From assembly GCA_030168575.1 (NCBI GenBank), contig CP115555.1, positions 124,001 to 188,000 of the forward strand: a DNA stretch of 64,000 nt. The letters run 5' to 3'. Position numbers and translations under genes: made by a program. Shown here in pieces: positions 6,590 to 15,318 of this stretch (the first letter of the stretch is position 1; every line of letters begins with the position of its first letter). Origin of the DNA: Methanomassiliicoccales archaeon LGM-RCC1 (GTDB taxonomy: Archaea; Thermoplasmatota; Thermoplasmata; Methanomassiliicoccales; Methanomethylophilaceae). Below the pieces are notes generated by a model that was not told the DNA's origin, made no database searches, and was given only the letters and a program-made list of their open reading frames with translations.

Positions 6590-8514
6590 AGACGGCCTAC
6601 TATCCTTTCTCTGCAGTATACGGGATGGATCAGACCAAGAAAGCACTGATGTGCGCGATAGCGAATCCACGCATCAAATCAGTACTAATCAGAGGTCCGT
6701 CCGGTACCGGGAAGACACTGGTAGCACGTTCGCTCGGACAGATTTCCGGAAAATCGATAGTGAACATTCCGCTGAATGTCACCGACGAGCAACTGTTCGG
6801 CTGTCTCGATATAGAACTGGCGGTCAAAGAAGGGAAGCTATCTCTTCAGGAAGGATTGCTCAATAGAGGTGACCACAACATCCTGTACATGGATGACATC
6901 AACCTATTCGAACACAGGATCATCACAGGAGTCATTGATGCTGTCCTGTCAGGTCAGGTGAGGATTGAGAGGGAGAACATGTCCACGTCGTACAAGGTGG
7001 ACACCATCCTGGTCGCCACCATGAACAACAGTGACTCGTACCTCTCCCCTCCGATCCTGGACCATTTCGACATGTGCGTCACCGTGGACTATCCAGAAGA
7101 TTCGGCAGGGAGAGAAGAGATCCTGAGGAGGAGCATCGCCTACGACGATGACCCTGATGTATTCATGGAGAAGTACCGCGAGGCGGATGATGAGGTCCAC
7201 GACAGGATAACCCGTGCCTCGGATATCCTGAAGGATGAGGAGCCTTCAGATGCTCTGATGGAGGCCATAGCCGGCGTGTGCAACAACATGGGCATCGATG
7301 GCCACCGCGGAGACCTCTCTGCGGCAAACGTCGCCATGACTCTGGCTGCGCTGGATGGAAGAACGGAGACAAACGAATCCGACATCATGGAAGCGTCCGT
7401 CCTCTGTCTTAACCACAGAGTGAAAGTCGTCAAAGGAAGAAGGGTTGACAAGAAGCAGAAACTGGCCAGGTCAACCGTCGGATTCAACACGGATTCCAAA
7501 GCTGCAAAGAAGCTGTTCACCAACAGAGAGGACAACGTAGATCTGTCGGGCGACGGCATCACCGATATGTCGGCCAACCAGCCTGTGGAAGAAGGTAACG
7601 GACCTAAGTTCAAAAGGAAAGAAACAGAGGACGTCATCACTAAGATCGGAGAGACGTTCAAGACCATCGATCTTTTCGAACAGGACACTGCGAAGGCAAA
7701 GGGCGAAGCGTCTGCCAATGGGAAGAGATTCCAGCAGAAGACCAAAGAGAGGAACGGCAGATACGTCGGTTCCAGAGTCACCGATGAGAAGAATCCTGAT
7801 CTCGCCTTCGATGCGACCGTGCGCGCTAGCGCCCCCTATCAGATGAAACGCCATAAGGAGAATGACACCGATATGGCCGTCATCATCGAGAAACAGGACA
7901 TGAGGGAGAAGATCAGGGAGACGAGGAGCTCCTCAACCTTCTTGTTCGCAGTGGATACAAGCGGTTCGCTCATTATCCGTAACAGGATGGTCGCGGTCAA
8001 AGGAGCAATCCTTTCCCTGCTCAAAGAACACTATGTCAAGAAGGACCGCGTAGGTTTCATGACCTTCAACGAGAAGGCCATCACAATGCTTCTGCAACCC
8101 TCAAGAGAGGTGGAGGTCATTTACAAGATGCTTGATGATCTGGCCATAGGCAGGAAGACCCCGCTCTCCGGTGCTATACAATACCTCAGCAACTATATGG
8201 CGATGTACACCAAGAAACGTCCCAACGATGATTGCTATGTGGTATTGGTCACAGACGGAAATGCCAACCTTCCGTTGGATCCGGACGATAAGGAAACTGA
8301 TCCCCTCAAGCAGGCCCTCGAGATGGCCGAGAAAGTCAACCTCCCCACGGTAAAATGGATCGTCATCGATACTGAAAAACGCGAGGATGTGGAGCATAAC
8401 GCAGTGAAATTCGCAAATGCCCTTCATGCAAAGTACTACACTCTGGACGATCTCCGCATAGAGACCTATGAGGAAATCAATCTGGTGCGTACCGCTAACG
8501 CGAAAATCATATGA
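6574..8514 (+). CDS. Chelatase D-type protein: AAA+ domain fused to VWA domain
   Basis: A 646 aa partner of the upstream ATPase. The N-terminal AAA+ domain (about 1-300) has an intact Walker A (GPSGTGKT, about 41-48) and Walker B (ILYMDDIN). A charged linker (about 300-440, with repeated Lys/Glu/Asp) follows, then a C-terminal von Willebrand A domain whose MIDAS motif DTSGS is at about 470-474 and whose TDGNA follows near 572. The order AAA-linker-VWA is that of ChlD/BchD/CobT-like proteins, which bridge the ATPase ring and the metal-inserting subunit. Unlike many D subunits, the AAA nucleotide site looks intact. It overlaps the upstream gene and is followed by a strong hairpin. A corrinoid link is plausible next to corrinoid methyltransferases but is inference. 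Confidence 0.83.
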   Translation: MSGNLKTAYYPFSAVYGMDQTKKALMCAIANPRIKSVLIRGPSGTGKTLVARSLGQISGKSIVNIPLNVTDEQLFGCLDIELAVKEGKLSLQEGLLNRGDHNILYMDDINLFEHRIITGVIDAVLSGQVRIERENMSTSYKVDTILVATMNNSDSYLSPPILDHFDMCVTVDYPEDSAGREEILRRSIAYDDDPDVFMEKYREADDEVHDRITRASDILKDEEPSDALMEAIAGVCNNMGIDGHRGDLSAANVAMTLAALDGRTETNESDIMEASVLCLNHRVKVVKGRRVDKKQKLARSTVGFNTDSKAAKKLFTNREDNVDLSGDGITDMSANQPVEEGNGPKFKRKETEDVITKIGETFKTIDLFEQDTAKAKGEASANGKRFQQKTKERNGRYVGSRVTDEKNPDLAFDATVRASAPYQMKRHKENDTDMAVIIEKQDMREKIRETRSSSTFLFAVDTSGSLIIRNRMVAVKGAILSLLKEHYVKKDRVGFMTFNEKAITMLLQPSREVEVIYKMLDDLAIGRKTPLSGAIQYLSNYMAMYTKKRPNDDCYVVLVTDGNANLPLDPDDKETDPLKQALEMAEKVNLPTVKWIVIDTEKREDVEHNAVKFANALHAKYYTLDDLRIETYEEINLVRTANAKII

Positions 8515-8521
8515 ACAGGAT

Positions 8522-8546
8522 CGGGGCGTCCTTCTCGGACGCCCCG
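8522..8546. terminator. Bidirectional GC hairpin between convergent genes
   Basis: Perfect 10-bp stem CGGGGCGTCC / GGACGCCCCG with a 5-nt loop. It lies between the stop of the chelatase operon (plus strand) and the stop of the SMR gene (minus strand), so it can terminate both. Confidence 0.7.
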
Positions 8547-8553
8547 GTTGAAA

Positions 8554-8931
8554 TCATTTCTCCTCGTCGATATACTCGACAGGCGTCATCTTCAATCCGA
8601 TGACACCGGCGATGATAAGGGCGAGGCACATGCCCATTCCCCACGAGAACCCTGTGCTCTCCAATCCTAGGATATAGGAGATCACCACCGTGAGGAACAC
8701 GCCGATACCAATCCACACCGCATACGCGGTCGTGAATGCAACACCCATCCTCATTGGATATTCCAGACAGATCATGCTCAGAACAAGGAACACGATAGTA
8801 ACGATATCCCATGCGATGTTGGTGAAAGATTCGGTATAGGCAAGACCTACCGACCATCCCAACTGAAGGAAACCTCCGAGGATGATCAGAAGCCAAGCAA
8901 TCTTCGTATTAGTCTTCCAGCTATCGTCCAT
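8554..8931 (-). CDS. SMR-family (SugE/Gdx-like) subunit lacking the essential glutamate
   Basis: A 125 aa protein with four membrane spans and clear small-multidrug-resistance features: W at the family position after helix 1, TAYAVWIGIG in helix 3 and GVIGLKM in helix 4, closest in pattern to SugE/Gdx guanidinium exporters. The membrane-embedded Glu of helix 1, which couples protons to substrate in this family, is replaced by Gln23 (segment GGFLQLGW; codon CAG). The C-terminus is extended by an acidic tail (EYIDEEK). It starts 4 nt after the stop of the other SMR gene, so the two probably form a heteromeric transporter in which only the partner carries the catalytic Glu. Confidence 0.82.
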   Translation of the reverse strand: MDDSWKTNTKIAWLLIILGGFLQLGWSVGLAYTESFTNIAWDIVTIVFLVLSMICLEYPMRMGVAFTTAYAVWIGIGVFLTVVISYILGLESTGFSWGMGMCLALIIAGVIGLKMTPVEYIDEEK

Positions 8932-8935
8932 CCTA

Positions 8936-9271
8936 TCACCCTGAGATTAACCTCACACCGATTATCCCAACGACGATCATCGCTATGAAAACCAGCTTCC
9001 TTGCAGTCAATTTCTCTTTGTACAGGACCCTTCCGATGATGACGATACCGGCTGCGCCGACACCTGCCAATATGGAGTACGAGACTCCGGGACCTATATT
9101 CTCTGGATTGGACGGTATGGACAGAAGGTACAGACATAGAAGGACCAGAATAATAGCTGCTGCTCCCCAGCCCTTCTTCTTGAAATTCTCGGATTTATCG
9201 AGACAGGTGACCCATATCGGCTCTATGATACTGGCCACTATCAGGATGATCCATGCCCAGATTACATCCAT
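8936..9271 (-). CDS. SMR-family small membrane transporter subunit
   Basis: A 111 aa, four-span SMR protein. Helix 1 keeps the essential Glu (Glu17 in SIIEPIW), and the helix 3 segment GVSYSILAGVGAAG and helix 4 IAMIVVGIIGVRL match the family. It pairs with the downstream SMR gene, which lacks this Glu, as in known two-gene systems such as EbrAB or YkkCD. The substrate is unknown; SMR pumps export quaternary amines, guanidinium and other small cations, which is notable next to a methylamine operon. A hairpin at 9322-9339 lies between that operon and this gene, so it may be transcribed separately or by read-through. Confidence 0.8.
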   Translation of the reverse strand: MDVIWAWIILIVASIIEPIWVTCLDKSENFKKKGWGAAAIILVLLCLYLLSIPSNPENIGPGVSYSILAGVGAAGIVIIGRVLYKEKLTARKLVFIAMIVVGIIGVRLISG

Positions 9272-9363: not shown

Positions 9364-9525
9364 TCAGACTTCTCTGTAGATCTTTCTGGACTTAATCAGT
9401 CCGTAGGCACAGAGTCCGAGGATGAAGACGGTCATGACTACCATTCCGCCGACTCCTCCGAAGATACCGGGCTCCAGGTAATCCACGACTGCTTGCCAAA
9501 CATCATATGTTGCTTCTGCTGCCAT
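9364..9525 (-). CDS. 53-residue single-span membrane peptide of the methylamine operon
   Basis: From the ATG at 9525 to TGA at 9364. The product begins MAAEATYDVWQAVVDYLEPG, has one glycine-rich hydrophobic span (about residues 20-43, containing GGVGGMVVMTVFILGLC) and ends in the basic tail KSRKIYREV, predicting the N-terminus outside and the C-terminus in the cytoplasm. It begins 2 nt after the stop of the winged-helix gene and shares its transcript; an AGGTGTGAATATG context gives a plausible ribosome site. Size and position, downstream of a permease, suggest an accessory subunit or regulator of the transporter, but I recognise no family. Confidence 0.68.
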   Translation of the reverse strand: MAAEATYDVWQAVVDYLEPGIFGGVGGMVVMTVFILGLCAYGLIKSRKIYREV

Positions 9526-9527
9526 AT

Positions 9528-9836
9528 TCACACCTTCTTGACCTTAACGGTCTTCTTGAGATAATCGAGATAGTCCGATCCGTAGCTAGTGAGAGAATAT
9601 GTGGTGAGGAGCTTTCCCTTATCCAGGATGCCTTCCTCATCAACAATGGCGCCGTCGTCAGAAATCAGACCGTAGGATGCCATCTCGATGCAGTCGAACT
9701 TGATCATTCCTCTTCCGTATGCGCTGTCGTATCCCTTGTACTCCTTGGAGAGTGCGAAACAGATCTCATCGGTCCTCTTGGGGCCGTTCTCAAGGAACTC
9801 GAGGATACGGAACTTGACTGGGGTATTCTCCATCAT
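9528..9836 (-). CDS. Winged-helix DNA-binding protein of the methylamine operon
   Basis: A 102 aa protein with a predicted winged-helix fold: helix KFRILEFLENG, helix RTDEICFALSKEYKG, recognition helix around GRGMIKFDCIEMASYGLI and a beta wing GAIVDEEGILDKGKLLTTYSLT, then a basic C-terminus. It starts one nucleotide after the permease stop and ends 2 nt before the 53 aa peptide gene, so it is part of the methylamine operon. It may be an autogenous transcription factor for methylamine use. The ATGATG start allows Met1 at 9836 or 9833. Confidence 0.7.
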   Translation of the reverse strand: MMENTPVKFRILEFLENGPKRTDEICFALSKEYKGYDSAYGRGMIKFDCIEMASYGLISDDGAIVDEEGILDKGKLLTTYSLTSYGSDYLDYLKKTVKVKKV

Positions 9837-9837
9837 T

Positions 9838-10911
9838 TCAATTACCGTCCCTTATAGATGCCATTTCTTCAGAGTCTTCGGTTGCCAACAGGTATGCTCC
9901 GAACAGACAGATGACCAGTCCGAGGATAGTCGAACCGACGATCATGACCATAGTGTCTTCGGTGTATCCGAGACCTGCTTCAGGTCCGAGGAACATAGCC
10001 AGGAATATGACTCCGCATGCTGCGTACAGTGATCCGATTGCCTGACCCCTTGCGAGTCCGATCATCGGGAAAGACTTGTACCACGAAACATAACACCATG
10101 CGAAGGAGAATCCGATCATCAGGACCATCAGGAAGGTGGTCGGGTCGAACAGCCATCCGATAGAGTCAAAGATCGGGAATCCGCAGATGAGGATAACAAT
10201 CATCACACAGGTCCAGAACAGGGCCTCGAATATGAATCTCAGGTGGATACCGATATCAGGCTCAGTGAGATCCAATGCCTTTGCGGCGGCGACTCCCTCG
10301 AATCCCCATCCGAAGGCTGCCATGAGTCCTCCGATGATTCCGTAGATCTGAACGGTAGGGTCAGCGATGATACTTCCTGCGTAAAGGGTGATACCTCCGA
10401 CGATCAGGACAATAACTGCGTAGTATGCCCTCTTAGAGACCTTCTGCTTCAGGTAGAGAACGGACATAGCGGTTCCTACAATCGGGTACAGAAGTCCAGC
10501 GACAGCTGCAAAACCGGGACTCAGGAACAGAGCTGCGAGGTAGGTACCGGAAACGGCACATGCTCCGCAGATTCCTGCAATGACGTAGTACTTGGTGACT
10601 GACTTGAACTGGACGAATGTCCTCACCAATTCCCTGTTCTTTCCAAGTCCTCCGTTCCAGATGAACAGAAGGACTGCACAAGCGACAGCGTTGATGAATG
10701 TCAGGAACAGTGCCTGGAAGACGAGTGCGAGATCGTTTGCCGCTCCTGCGTCCAGCATGTTTTGATAAACATCATCAACCAGAGGAGACTTGTAAATTGC
10801 GTAACCAGGTACGTACCATACTCCCCAATACAAGGCACAGAGTATTCCCATCAACAGTCCGATCTTCTTCTTCCTGTCGTGGTCCAAGTGCCTTATTTCA
10901 TTAACATCCAT
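9838..10911 (-). CDS. mttP: DMT-type permease, probable trimethylamine permease
   Basis: A 357 aa integral membrane protein with ten predicted spans, in the DMT/GRP sugar-permease-like fold. It follows mttC, the place where methanogens carry the putative trimethylamine permease MttP, and its length fits that protein. The N-terminus is charged (MDVNEIRHLDHDRKKKIG) and the C-terminal tail is acidic (EDSEEMASIRDGN). Between mttC and this gene is a cUUCGg-type hairpin (10937-10954) that could lower transport gene expression relative to the methyltransferases. The substrate is inferred from context; other quaternary or tertiary amines are possible. Confidence 0.72.
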   Translation of the reverse strand: MDVNEIRHLDHDRKKKIGLLMGILCALYWGVWYVPGYAIYKSPLVDDVYQNMLDAGAANDLALVFQALFLTFINAVACAVLLFIWNGGLGKNRELVRTFVQFKSVTKYYVIAGICGACAVSGTYLAALFLSPGFAAVAGLLYPIVGTAMSVLYLKQKVSKRAYYAVIVLIVGGITLYAGSIIADPTVQIYGIIGGLMAAFGWGFEGVAAAKALDLTEPDIGIHLRFIFEALFWTCVMIVILICGFPIFDSIGWLFDPTTFLMVLMIGFSFAWCYVSWYKSFPMIGLARGQAIGSLYAACGVIFLAMFLGPEAGLGYTEDTMVMIVGSTILGLVICLFGAYLLATEDSEEMASIRDGN

Positions 10912-10974: not shown

Positions 10975-11619
10975 TCACTTCTCGAAAGCGGCGGCGAACT
11001 TCGCAGCTGCATCAGAGGCGTTCTCTGTGTACAGGTCTGCTCCGATCTCGTCGGCCCACTGCTGGGTGACGGGTGCTCCACCGACGTTGGTGAGGCACTT
11101 GCCCTTCAGTCCGGCCTTTGCCATCTTCTCCTCGAAAGTCTTCTGTCCGACCATGGTCGATGTCATCAGTGCGGATGTTCCGACTGCGACAGCGTTGTTG
11201 TCGATACATGCCTGGACGATCGTGTCAAGAGGTACATCCCTTCCGATGTTCTTGACGTTGAATCCAGCGACCTTGAGCATAATTGCGACGATGTCCTTTC
11301 CAATGGAGTGGATGTCTCCCTCGATGGAACAGATGACGACTGTTCCAAGTCCGGTTCCGGTTGATCCTCCGAGCTTTGCGATCTCGGGCTCGAGAATCTC
11401 CATTGCTGCGTTCATTGTCGCGGCTGCTGCCATGACGTGGGGCAGGTACAGCTTCTTTGCCTCGAAGAGTGCACCGACCTCTGTCATTCCGGCAGAGTAT
11501 CCGTTCTCGATCAGGTCAACAAGGTCTGCTCCCTCTGCGACTGCCTTCTTGGCGATCTCGGCGGCGCCCTTGTTGTCGTATTTCATAATTGCATTCTTTG
11601 CGTCTTCTGCAAGTGTCAT
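10975..11619 (-). CDS. mttC: Trimethylamine corrinoid protein MttC
   Basis: Cobamide-binding protein (214 aa) that accepts the methyl group from MttB and presents it to the MtbA-type methyltransferase that methylates coenzyme M. It has the N-terminal helical cap domain (about 1-90) and the Rossmann B12-binding domain with the base-off motif DIHSIG (His104 as the cobalt ligand) and GTSALMTST. It starts 37 nt after mttB with a strong AGGAGG site. Its first 84 residues are identical to a second corrinoid protein at 30124-30768, and only 11 of 214 positions differ overall, which signals recent duplication or gene conversion. Confidence 0.95.
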   Translation of the reverse strand: MTLAEDAKNAIMKYDNKGAAEIAKKAVAEGADLVDLIENGYSAGMTEVGALFEAKKLYLPHVMAAAATMNAAMEILEPEIAKLGGSTGTGLGTVVICSIEGDIHSIGKDIVAIMLKVAGFNVKNIGRDVPLDTIVQACIDNNAVAVGTSALMTSTMVGQKTFEEKMAKAGLKGKCLTNVGGAPVTQQWADEIGADLYTENASDAAAKFAAAFEK

Positions 11620-11656: not shown

Positions 11657-13150
11657 TCACTCTTTTCCCTTAAGGAAGTCATCGTCGGCCTGCTTGACGA
11701 TTGCTTCCATCTTCTTTGCGATCTCAGGGTCAATGGGTGCAACGACGTGGTTCTTGAGTACATCAACAACGATCTCGTGGGCGACGTCTACACATGCCTT
11801 GGATCCCTGTGCTCTCCAGTCTCCGATCATGTCCCTGTTGAACACAGTGGGGTCTGATGCGAGGTCGATGTTTGCCATGGTGGTGGGGTGTCCGATGAAG
11901 TCCTTTCCGACTCCGAGCTCCTTGATGACGGGGACTGCCAGGGTCTCGTCGTTGACGACGATTCCCTCGAGTGCCTTCCTCTCCATTGCGATGATGTCGT
12001 TGTCGATAACGAGCTGCTCGAGTGAGAAGGTCTGTCCGAGCTCAAGCATTCCGGATCCGTAGATCATGTTGACTCCGGCCATTGCGGGGAGAAGAGAAGT
12101 GATGGTCTTCTCGTGGGCTGCCTGGGAGTCAGGGACTTTGGCGTCGGTCTACATACCGGCCGTGAAGACGGGAAGTCCGTAGTACCTACCGAGCTCTCCT
12201 ACAGCTGCGGAGATGAGAGCGAGCTCGGGTGCTCCGACGGGTGCGGTTCCGTGCTTGAGGTCGAAGATCGTAGTGGAGGATCCGTAGTAGACGGGTGCTC
12301 CGGGCTTGACGATCTGAGCGAGGATGATTCCAGAGAGAATCTCTGCATTGTGGGTGACGAGTGTTCCTGCGAGGTGAACGGACGAGGATCCTCCAGCCAT
12401 TGCCATGGACAGGACGTTGACGGGGATTCCGAACTCTGCTCCCTGCTTGATAACCTGTGCTGCGTTGTGTGACAGCTCGAGAGGTGATGTGGGGCAAACG
12501 AGCATGGACATCAGGGGCCTGTCGCGGGCCTTCTCTGCGTCTCCTCCGTAGTATGCCTTGAGCATCTCCCAGTAGTACTTCACATGCTCAGCGACGGGGT
12601 CGATGTGGTGGAAGTGCTTGACGGTGTTGGCGATGGAGATGTACATCTCGTGGACATCCTCTGCTCCCTTTCCTGCCCAGTCTCTTGCGGAAACGGGAAG
12701 GGAGAAGTAGCTGATTCCATCTGCCCAGTCACAGAGCCTTGCAATCTGAGCAAGGTCCTCGCTGTTGGAGTCACGGGTCTCGTACTTTCCGTCGCCGAGG
12801 TAGTTACAAACCTGGATTCCGGTTCCGAAACAGGTGTAGTGGACACGTCCGTTCCATGCCTGCTCGACTGTGTGGTCGTCATCCCTTCCGTAGAGGTAGA
12901 ATGTCTTGGGGGCGGATGCGAGTGCCTTGTTCAGAAGGAAGTCGGGGATCCTGACCATCTTTGTCTCGTAGTTGACGATACAGCCGGCGTCCTCGAAGAT
13001 CTTGATACACTCGTCGTCAGAAACCTGCACTCCGTAGTTCCAGAGAACATCCCTTGTTGCAAGGTCGATTGACACGCAGTCATCATGGGTGAACAGGTTC
13101 ATCTTGATACCGTTCATTCCGATTTTTCCAGGGTACTGGATTTGTTTCAT
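11657..13150 (-). CDS. mttB: Trimethylamine methyltransferase MttB, pyrrolysine-containing
   Basis: Transfers a methyl group from trimethylamine to the Co(I) corrinoid of MttC. The frame is 498 codons including the stop, with a single in-frame TAG at 12149-12151. This is codon 334, exactly the pyrrolysine position of the Methanosarcina enzyme, in the context FTAGM[20 protein letters not shown]. The sequence continues in the same frame to TGA at 11657, so it is an intact gene, not a pseudogene. Typical motifs include [10 protein letters not shown] and [16 protein letters not shown]. It starts at ATG 13150 behind aggaggaaaacaa, 104 nt after mtbB, with a 10-bp hairpin in that gap. pylT and pylSBCD are not in the window. 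Confidence 0.97.
12149..12151 (-). other. In-frame UAG, pyrrolysine codon of mttB
   Basis: The codon reads CTA on the plus strand, TAG on the coding strand, as codon 334. Upstream and downstream peptides align as one continuous MttB protein, and position 334 is the established Pyl site of this family. Confidence 0.96.
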
Positions 13151-13253: not shown

Positions 13254-14660
13254 TCAGCGTTTCTGTGTCTTCTCGCGGAACTTCTCACAGCTGTTGATCT
13301 TGATGTCGAGAAGGTTCTCGATGTTCATCTTGGCTGCGATTCCGCGGGGTGCTCCGGGCACTCCGGTGACGATTCCGATTCCGAGCTCCTCACGGAGGTC
13401 CCTCATCACGAACTCGTCTGCAAGTTCTACAGCGGTGACACCGAGCTTCTTCGCGACGTACTCTTTAGCATCCTTGATTCTCATGTTCTTTCCGAACTGC
13501 ATCCTGGCGATGAGATCTCCGGTGGTCCTGATTCCTCCCATTCCCGATGTCAGGAAGTGAGGCAGGTCCATTCCGGCGGGGTCTCCTACTCCGCACTAGA
13601 TACCGTCGACTCCGGCGATCTCGACCATTGCCTTGCTGGCCCTGGAGACGGCGTCGATCGGGGGTGTCTCGCACATCGGGATTCCTCCGACTCCCATTCC
13701 CATGTCCGCGTGGATCGGGATGTTGGATGTCTTGACGGCCTCCTTGATGAATGTGACCGCCCTTGCGATGTTGAATGCGAGTGACTTGCTGGTGTTGGAG
13801 TTACAGACTGTTCCGCAGACGTTTGCTCCTGCCTTCTCTGCAAGGTGGACGTACTGGTGGGGGTACATTCCCGCGACGACCTGTCCCTCGAACTCGATCA
13901 TTCCGTGGATTCCCATGATGGACTCTCCAGCGAAACCGACCTGGATGTATGCCTCGGGGCACTGCTCCCTCAGGATCTTGACTCCGTTGAGTGTTCCGAC
14001 GCAGTCCGCATCTCCTGCGGAACCGGTTGTGTCGAAGTTGAATCCATCGGATCCGGCTGCCTGGAGCCTTGTTGCAACGTACTCGATATCCCTTGTAACG
14101 TGCTGGGATGCGAGCTCGGACTGCTGCATGGACTCCTCGATCTTGAACTCCCTCATGAGGTCTGCGGGGTTTCCGTAGGGTCCGTCAGGGGCATAGTAGA
14201 GTCCCTGGTTGGGCATAGCTCCGTAGAAGAACGGTGCGATGATCTCGGCCTGGATCTCCTCCATGGTCTGCATCTCCATGGAGATGACAGGCTTTACAGG
14301 CTTGATGGAGTAATCGGAGTGTGCGAGCTCGAATGTGTCGGCTCCAAGGGCCCTCTCGTGCAGCAGTGCTGCCTCGAGCCTTCCCATGTCGACTCCGTTT
14401 CCGGAGTTTCCGTTGTCTCCTGTGAAGTCCAGCTGTCCGATATCGTACGAAAGGACGACCTCCTGGCCGGGCTCTACTCCGACGACCCTGTCCTGACACA
14501 TGATGATCTCGGCGATGTGCTCGATAGCGTTCGCGTCCAACTGGGGGATGGAAGCCATGTCTGCTGCATCGGCGGTACCCTCATGGATATCGTCGAGGAT
14601 CTTCTCCTTGGTCATGGTGACTCTCTTTCCGTCACCCATTCTTGTGTAATACTCGCTCAT
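13254..14660 (-). CDS. mtbB: Dimethylamine methyltransferase MtbB, pyrrolysine-containing
   Basis: Demethylates dimethylamine, passing the methyl group to the corrinoid of MtbC. The frame is 469 codons including the stop, with one in-frame TAG at 13596-13598 (codon 355, matching the family Pyl site near 356) in the context [10 protein letters not shown][21 protein letters not shown]. Upstream family segments include [20 protein letters not shown] and [13 protein letters not shown]. The reading frame resumes without shift and ends in TGA at 13254. It follows mtbC by 13 nt with the weak GGTGAG site, so the pair is one transcriptional unit. Confidence 0.97.
13596..13598 (-). other. In-frame UAG, pyrrolysine codon of mtbB
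   Basis: CTA on the plus strand, TAG on the coding strand, codon 355 of mtbB. The surrounding protein is continuous and matches the known active-site Pyl of dimethylamine methyltransferases. Confidence 0.96.
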
Positions 14661-14673
14661 TTACTCACCTATT

Positions 14674-15318
14674 TCAGTCTGAAGCTAATGCTGAGGCTTT
14701 CTTGGTCGTCTCGGATGCGGACTCTCCGTAGAGGTCTGCTCCGATCTTATCGGCGTATCCCTGCGTGACAGGTGCACCTCCGACCATGACGGTAACGTTA
14801 TCACGGATACCGTCGGCTTTGAGGTTATCAATGACTGTCTTCATTCCAGTCATGGTTGTCGTCATGAGTGCGGACATTCCGCAGAAGTTGCAGCCGCCCT
14901 TGACCTCCTCGATGAAGTTCTTGAGGGGCACATCCCTTCCGAGATCGTGTACCTCGAATCCTGCACACTGGAGCATCGTAGAGCAGATTGACTTTCCGAT
15001 GTCGTGAACGTCTCCCTCGACTGTACCCATAACTACAGTTCCCTTGCTCTGTCCGGCGCCTGCACCGGCCTTGAGCTCAGCATCGAGAACATTCATGGCG
15101 TTCTTCATTCCTGCTGCCGCACTGAGTACGTGGGGCAGGAACAGCTTTCCCCTCTCGAACAGAACTCCGACGTCGGACATTGCTGCTCCGAGGGCATTGA
15201 TGATATCCTCAGCAGGCATGCCGGCATCGTGTGCCGCCTGCACCGCTGTAGCGATATCAGGAACCTTACAGGATATCAGAGCATCCTGAAGTTTCTTTGT
15301 TTCCTCCTCATAAGCCAT
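14674..15318 (-). CDS. mtbC: Dimethylamine corrinoid protein MtbC
   Basis: Corrinoid carrier for MtbB, 214 aa, with cap domain (about 1-90) and B12 domain containing DVHDIG (His105 as the lower cobalt ligand) and SALMTTTMTGMK. First gene of the methylamine operon. ATG at 15318 with a strong aaaggaggaaaacaa ribosome binding site. It is clearly diverged from the two MttC copies, as expected for a distinct methyltransferase partner. Confidence 0.95.
   Translation of the reverse strand: MAYEEETKKLQDALISCKVPDIATAVQAAHDAGMPAEDIINALGAAMSDVGVLFERGKLFLPHVLSAAAGMKNAMNVLDAELKAGAGAGQSKGTVVMGTVEGDVHDIGKSICSTMLQCAGFEVHDLGRDVPLKNFIEEVKGGCNFCGMSALMTTTMTGMKTVIDNLKADGIRDNVTVMVGGAPVTQGYADKIGADLYGESASETTKKASALASD

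Follow-up and report, generated by a model that had tools for sequence, protein, structure and literature searches.

What is encoded by the short open reading frame that closes a methylamine operon of the Methanomassiliicoccales archaeon LGM-RCC1, and how is it related to the permease gene lying upstream? The frame occupies positions 9364-9525 of the stretch of DNA analysed here (64,000 nucleotides of contig CP115555.1, hereafter the window), and a first-pass annotation had described it as an overlooked 53-residue membrane peptide of the operon and a candidate regulator of the upstream permease. The coordinates were right, and the gene lies on the minus strand: reading of the sequence places an ATG at 9525, followed by 53 codons and a stop that ends at 9364, and the plus-strand reading of the same positions was rejected as the gene. 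The start falls 2 nt past the TGA of the preceding gene, as had been noticed before, and a Shine-Dalgarno-like AAGGTG (9531-9536, minus strand) stands 5 nt ahead of it, overlapping the end of that gene; an SD-like 4-mer is found ahead of the start in 131 of 153 unique relatives. The product is a 53-aa single-span membrane protein (SMP), called on the open frame, its relatives, dN/dS, charge and a tail motif, with one hydrophobic span that is acidic on its N-side and basic on its C-side.

SMP is the last gene of an operon on the minus strand (as are all the features that follow), in the order mtbC-mtbB-mttB-mttC-permease-winged helix-SMP. The dimethylamine corrinoid protein gene mtbC (14674-15318) has MtbC as its best NCBIfam match, at 271 bits missing the cut-off of 350, and reaches that of TIGR02370; mtbB (13254-14660; PF09505, E 1e-241) encodes the dimethylamine methyltransferase by amber readthrough, mttB (11657-13150; PF06253, E 7e-84) the trimethylamine methyltransferase by amber readthrough (pyrrolysine), and mttC (10975-11619) a methylamine corrinoid protein (TIGR02370, 221.2 bits against a cut-off of 215.3). 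The remaining genes form a trio: an EamA/DMT permease of MttP type (357 aa, 9838-10911; PF00892, 33.7 bits against a cut-off of 28.2), a PadR/RosR-like winged-helix protein (102 aa, 9528-9836; assigned from an AlphaFold2 model and its fold matches in the PDB) and SMP itself. The permease that the first-pass annotation spoke of is indeed present, but it lies one gene further up, and the immediate upstream neighbour of SMP is the 102-aa winged-helix gene, which that annotation had left out.

Downstream, a 92-bp gap separates the SMP stop from two same-strand genes for SMR-family transporters, at 8936-9271 (PF00893, E 4e-17) and 8554-8931 (PF00893, E 1e-11); the first adjoins the trio without being a member, and the pair adjoins it in several relatives only. 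These two SMR genes (8554-9271) possibly encode a paired exporter for quaternary amines, next to the importer. Inside the gap, past the SMP stop, lies a GC hairpin (9339-9322, GGAGGGG-GAAA-CCCCTCC) with a 7-bp stem and a GAAA loop. The whole spacer folds with z = -1.96, and a GC stem recurs at the same place in 8 of 8 folded spacers (the window and seven relatives), so that the hairpin probably marks where the operon ends on its 3′ side, or stabilises it. The earlier description of an operon-end hairpin holds as far as the hairpin goes; since the hairpin in the window has no T-run, a search there for a canonical terminator found none and the first SMR gene starts at 9271 on the same strand, the operon end is a plausible candidate.

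Whether so short a frame is a gene at all can be judged from its relatives. Searches of Pfam and NCBIfam leave the window SMP without a family. The earlier label of an overlooked gene holds only in part, a gene at the same position in Methanosarcina mazei having been published in 2024 (PMC11456600). Among 147 genomes of the order Methanomassiliicoccales, an SMP match was obtained in 23 at E<=0.01 (50 at E<=1, many of them spurious), and the winged-helix gene lies directly upstream in 22 of the 23 fetched loci, the 23rd starting inside SMP at a contig end; this set leaves out one match (E 0.002, genome G091, contig C8). The permease is matched at 1e-20 in 54 of the 147 genomes. Following the suggestion of the first-pass annotation, the same peptide was sought after mttP in other members of the order, and a winged-helix gene and a small membrane ORF were present in 57 of 60 fetched permease regions, the other three reaching the contig border. 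Four of the 60 are remote paralogues whose permease is about 30% identical, still accompanied by a winged helix and a membrane ORF of 39-51 aa. The genome of the window itself has a second, remote trio (L120, contig C1, about 598301-599745), near mtbB/mtbC-like and mttB-like genes.

Comparison of the SMP gene with five relatives gives dN/dS values of 0.18 (the nearest relative), 0.26, 0.43, 0.20 and 0.75, the last of these (against L067) being near neutral and weak evidence given the very short gene. As a control, gene ends were screened with a single strict hydropathy rule: of 154 winged-helix genes, 121 have a small membrane ORF behind them, against 3 such cases at 519 ends of genes for methyltransferases, corrinoid proteins, SMR transporters and amino-acid permeases from these loci. 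The conservation, the dN/dS of 0.18 and this control therefore argue against a chance frame and, judged by these sequence comparisons, the SMP ORF is a real, conserved protein gene under purifying selection. Some loci are irregular: in L071 (8651-9904) the winged-helix-SMP pair stands in a tandem duplicate (96% identical, 435 nt) beside a permease-winged-helix fusion, and the permease of L104 (about 7458-8570) and the winged helix of L078 are split between frames, by sequencing errors or decay.

How far the trio extends was determined by scanning genome contigs with the permease alignment and taking the best 80 of 216 relatives, which partly overlap the 60 regions above. The trio is found in the same order in 79 of these best 80, the last one ending 15 nt past the permease. 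Its archaeal carriers among them include Methanomassiliicoccales, Methanosarcina, Methanococcoides, Methanolobus, Methanimicrococcus and Methanohalophilus, and its bacterial carriers Pseudogemmobacter humi, Roseovarius, Sedimentitalea, Desulfobacula, a Synergistaceae bin and an Actinophytocola bin (bins may be mis-sorted). Carriage by bacteria is confirmed on complete plasmids of Paracoccus aminovorans, Azoarcus and Cupriavidus; the gene tables of the Paracoccus aminovorans and Azoarcus plasmids, which are incomplete, list the permease and the winged helix and omit SMP. Permease matches are common across the Methanosarcina order, with 88 of 185 genomes (30 loci and 39 fetched regions, rather than all places, were read from these), and rare both in the family of Roseovarius (4 of 394) and in the Desulfobacula phylum (2 of 297, including one distant permease that has no partners). 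One batch of regions was picked for divergent or odd copies and another arbitrarily. Most archaeal trio loci adjoin methylamine methyltransferase genes, and the trio on the Paracoccus aminovorans plasmid adjoins ETF, HdrD-like and aminomethyltransferase genes. Bacterial trios at L203 (1-9056) and L201 (7545-12872) stand beside genes for ETF, HdrD/DgcB-like iron-sulphur proteins and aminomethyltransferases. The make-up of the bacterial neighbourhoods suggests demethylation of methylated amines or betaines.

The linkage is close to one-to-one. Counting permease genes that match the model at E<1e-60 and have at least 700 nt downstream, both partners follow 218 of 227, or 153 of 161 with duplicates removed. 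One exception (L104) is the first half of a split permease whose second half carries the trio. The others lack one or both partners: they are second permeases in tandem pairs (L256-L259), a copy on a Methanohalobium plasmid close to a transposase gene (L205/L265) and fragments (L263, L267). In the tandem pairs, all from Methanosarcinales, only one permease of each pair has a winged helix and SMP, so that a single set may serve both permeases. Neither partner accompanies the more distant permeases (L255/L275). On an Enterococcus raffinosus plasmid (L207, 4761-6057), the gene after a distant permease encodes a 94-aa protein related to the winged helix (profile E 3e-8), and SMP is absent, in the setting of a choline cut microcompartment operon (choline trimethylamine-lyase); the link to the winged helix is thus broader than that to SMP. 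Permeases lacking SMP, whether at L207, in tandem pairs, on the plasmid or in fragments, indicate that the permease fold can exist without it.

A search of Pfam and NCBIfam with 45 SMPs returned scattered matches only, to one or two members each, no credible relative of solved structure was found (best E 0.055), and the search of viral contigs gave one 16-residue match without clear meaning (L032). A profile of the Methanomassiliicoccales SMPs (A4) matches the SMPs of Methanosarcina loci at about E 1e-12 to 1e-17. Of the 153 unique peptides, 140 have R at position -7 and 7 have K; 151 have A, S or G just before it, at -8, and every one ends in F, I, L, V or M, giving a tail motif [A/S/G]-R-x6-end with a hydrophobic last residue. 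In 151 of 151 unique peptides of up to 64 aa (two longer ones left out), the flank that follows the span is more basic than the one that precedes it, which points to an N-out, C-in topology; by hydropathy and the charge rule, SMP is predicted to reside in the membrane in this orientation. The single span with charged ends that had been read in the window is accordingly shared by these relatives, but the glycine richness noted along with it, present in the window SMP, is no trait of the family.

The middle protein of the window trio has no Pfam family above the cut-off, a PadR profile matches only 2 of 24 winged-helix partners, below its cut-off (best E 0.071), and a PDB sequence search with the winged-helix profile gave nothing to E 1. 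Its AlphaFold2 model (mean pLDDT 95.5, pTM 0.87) resembles PadR, RosR and MarR in the PDB at Z about 10-11 (matches within 1 Z being tied). The permease has LicB as its sole sequence relative in the PDB (E 2e-17). In two unrelated lineages, permease and winged helix form a single open frame, joined by a short linker: this is so in two genomes of Methanomethylophilaceae (L071 and L074, the latter also present as NZ_LOPS01000011.1, L130) and, independently, in a bacterium of the Roseovarius family (L253). The model of a fused archaeal relative (mean pLDDT 88.6, pTM 0.85) superposes its permease half on LicB with Z 30.9 and 2.3 A over 276 residues, the next structural matches being other DMT transporters at Z <=24, and its pTM may reflect an ordered arrangement of permease and winged helix. 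From the model and the sequence match, the permease of the window is a predicted LicB-like importer of the EamA/DMT class, with trimethylamine as a putative substrate. In the DMT fold the C-terminus of the permease is cytosolic; the fusion to this C-terminus would therefore place the winged helix on the cytosolic face. Internal Met codons in or near the fusion linker make a separate start of the winged helix possible.

Parts of this arrangement have been met before. Small single-span subunits of the KdpF, CydX and AcrZ type have a single short membrane helix, and their genes share an operon with that of a large membrane protein. SMP is like them in this, although its trio has an extra gene, for a soluble winged-helix protein, in between. 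To our knowledge, LicB, the choline importer of Streptococcus pneumoniae, works without a winged-helix or single-span partner. It belongs to the DMT superfamily (PDB 7b0k, 7paf) and resembles the permease in sequence and structure, with a quaternary amine as its substrate, but is only about 16% identical in the structural match to the fused relative. PadR and RosR regulators share the fold of the middle protein, which differs from them in reaching no curated family cut-off, in being mostly acidic and in its fusions to the permease in two lineages. The closest precedent is sORF_05 (MM_RS18880) of M. mazei, a small hydrophobic helical protein that is translated according to ribosome profiling and western blot, occurs mainly in the membrane fraction and is encoded together with the trimethylamine permease MM_1691 and the hypothetical MM_1692; its overexpression slowed growth, its relatives were reported only within Methanosarcinaceae and its authors speculate that it is a permease subunit (PMC11456600). 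Both it and the window SMP come directly after genes for a putative trimethylamine permease and a small hypothetical protein, and Methanosarcina loci show the same trio, so the two are likened by gene order and by the Methanosarcina relatives. The passages of that paper on sORF_05 describe no fusions, bacterial members or tail motif, and leave MM_1692 hypothetical; the Methanomassiliicoccales and bacterial members, the fixed trio, the tail motif and the fusions are new relative to that work. In Methanomassiliicoccales, mttP/mtbP or putative transporters have been named in passages that do not mention SMP (PMC5688252, PMC4153887), an account of MttP states that its transport is still to be validated (PMC11708041) and an MttP/LicB-like EamA gene is described in a choline cluster (PMC12155760). 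A search of the open-access literature found no other description of the trio, of the winged-helix partner or of a small subunit of a DMT permease, and no report of physical interaction among the parts.

That SMP is a dedicated component of the permease is strongly supported, and the transporter is probably a three-part machine made of permease, winged helix and SMP: one SMP gene and one winged-helix gene per permease, paralogues included, argue for dedicated parts of one transporter. The more specific reading that we favour, and hold to be likely, is that SMP is a dedicated stoichiometric accessory subunit of the MttP-type (LicB-like) methylamine permease, with which we infer a physical complex. 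SMP would make a single pass through the membrane, leaving its basic C-terminus with the invariant spacing in the cytosol, and would pack against the ten-helix permease; next to the C-terminus of the permease, its cytosolic tail would form or stabilise a docking site for the winged-helix protein, which would sit on the cytosolic face. The trio would act as one unit that imports tri- or dimethylamine or related methylated amines for the co-encoded methyltransferases, the likeliest job of SMP being to assemble or stabilise the complex and to couple the winged helix to the transport state. Mutual-information covariation across 152 trios says nothing on contacts, since it amounts to only 58 effective sequences and the pairs between proteins are no stronger than those within proteins or background.

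The main rival of the subunit model, and in our judgement a rather unlikely one, reads the winged helix as a transcription factor: a DNA-binding protein held at the membrane by SMP and the permease, and released or switched by substrate, with SMP as tether or clamp. PadR, RosR and MarR as the closest folds (Z about 10-11), the natural fusion to the permease C-terminus, by which a winged helix can work at the membrane, and its single copy per permease, also in paralogues, all fit such a transport-coupled regulator. However, a shared fold does not amount to DNA binding, most of the winged-helix proteins are acidic (net charge -3 on average and between -13 and +4 in 74 sequences) and a fused winged helix stays at the membrane unless it is cleaved or separately started. 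In both this reading and the subunit model, SMP has the role of a clamp.

Bacterial small single-span proteins often modulate transporters, and the first-pass annotation had accordingly proposed an optional modulator of permease activity or turnover. The slower growth of M. mazei on overexpression of the protein at the same position (PMC11456600) points the same way, although any membrane peptide in excess may act in this way unspecifically. The permease link that this proposal presupposed is strong, but near-obligate linkage, a fixed length and a fixed tail exceed the needs of an optional modulator; because the linkage is strictly one-to-one and both length and C-terminus are fixed, a structural subunit fits better, and modulation as such appears improbable. 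An untranslated frame in the 3′ region of the operon, kept for RNA structure or coupling, would suit the recurrent GC hairpin just downstream and is rejected as next to impossible in view of amino-acid conservation across archaea and bacteria, dN/dS, the SD-like motif, the fixed C-terminus, the control of 3 in 519 and the detection of the M. mazei protein by ribosome profiling and western blot (PMC11456600).

Beyond the subunit model, it can tentatively be proposed, as an idea with some chance of being right but more of being wrong, that MttP-type importers of archaea and bacteria are obligate three-part machines in which SMP clamps a PadR-like winged-helix sensor to a LicB-like permease at its cytosolic face, and amine flux directly switches methyltransferase expression or gates the transporter. 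If true, this transporter family would have a one-component regulator built in, an arrangement not described in the open-access literature searched. The trio makes the question of the partners of MttP directly testable and, with one small partner unlabelled in plasmid gene tables, offers a simple way to annotate the gene that is missing there. In guts and sediments, methylotrophic methanogenesis draws on imported trimethylamine, the precursor of TMAO, which is thereby removed; if the transporter needs both small partners, studies that use the permease only may fail for that reason.
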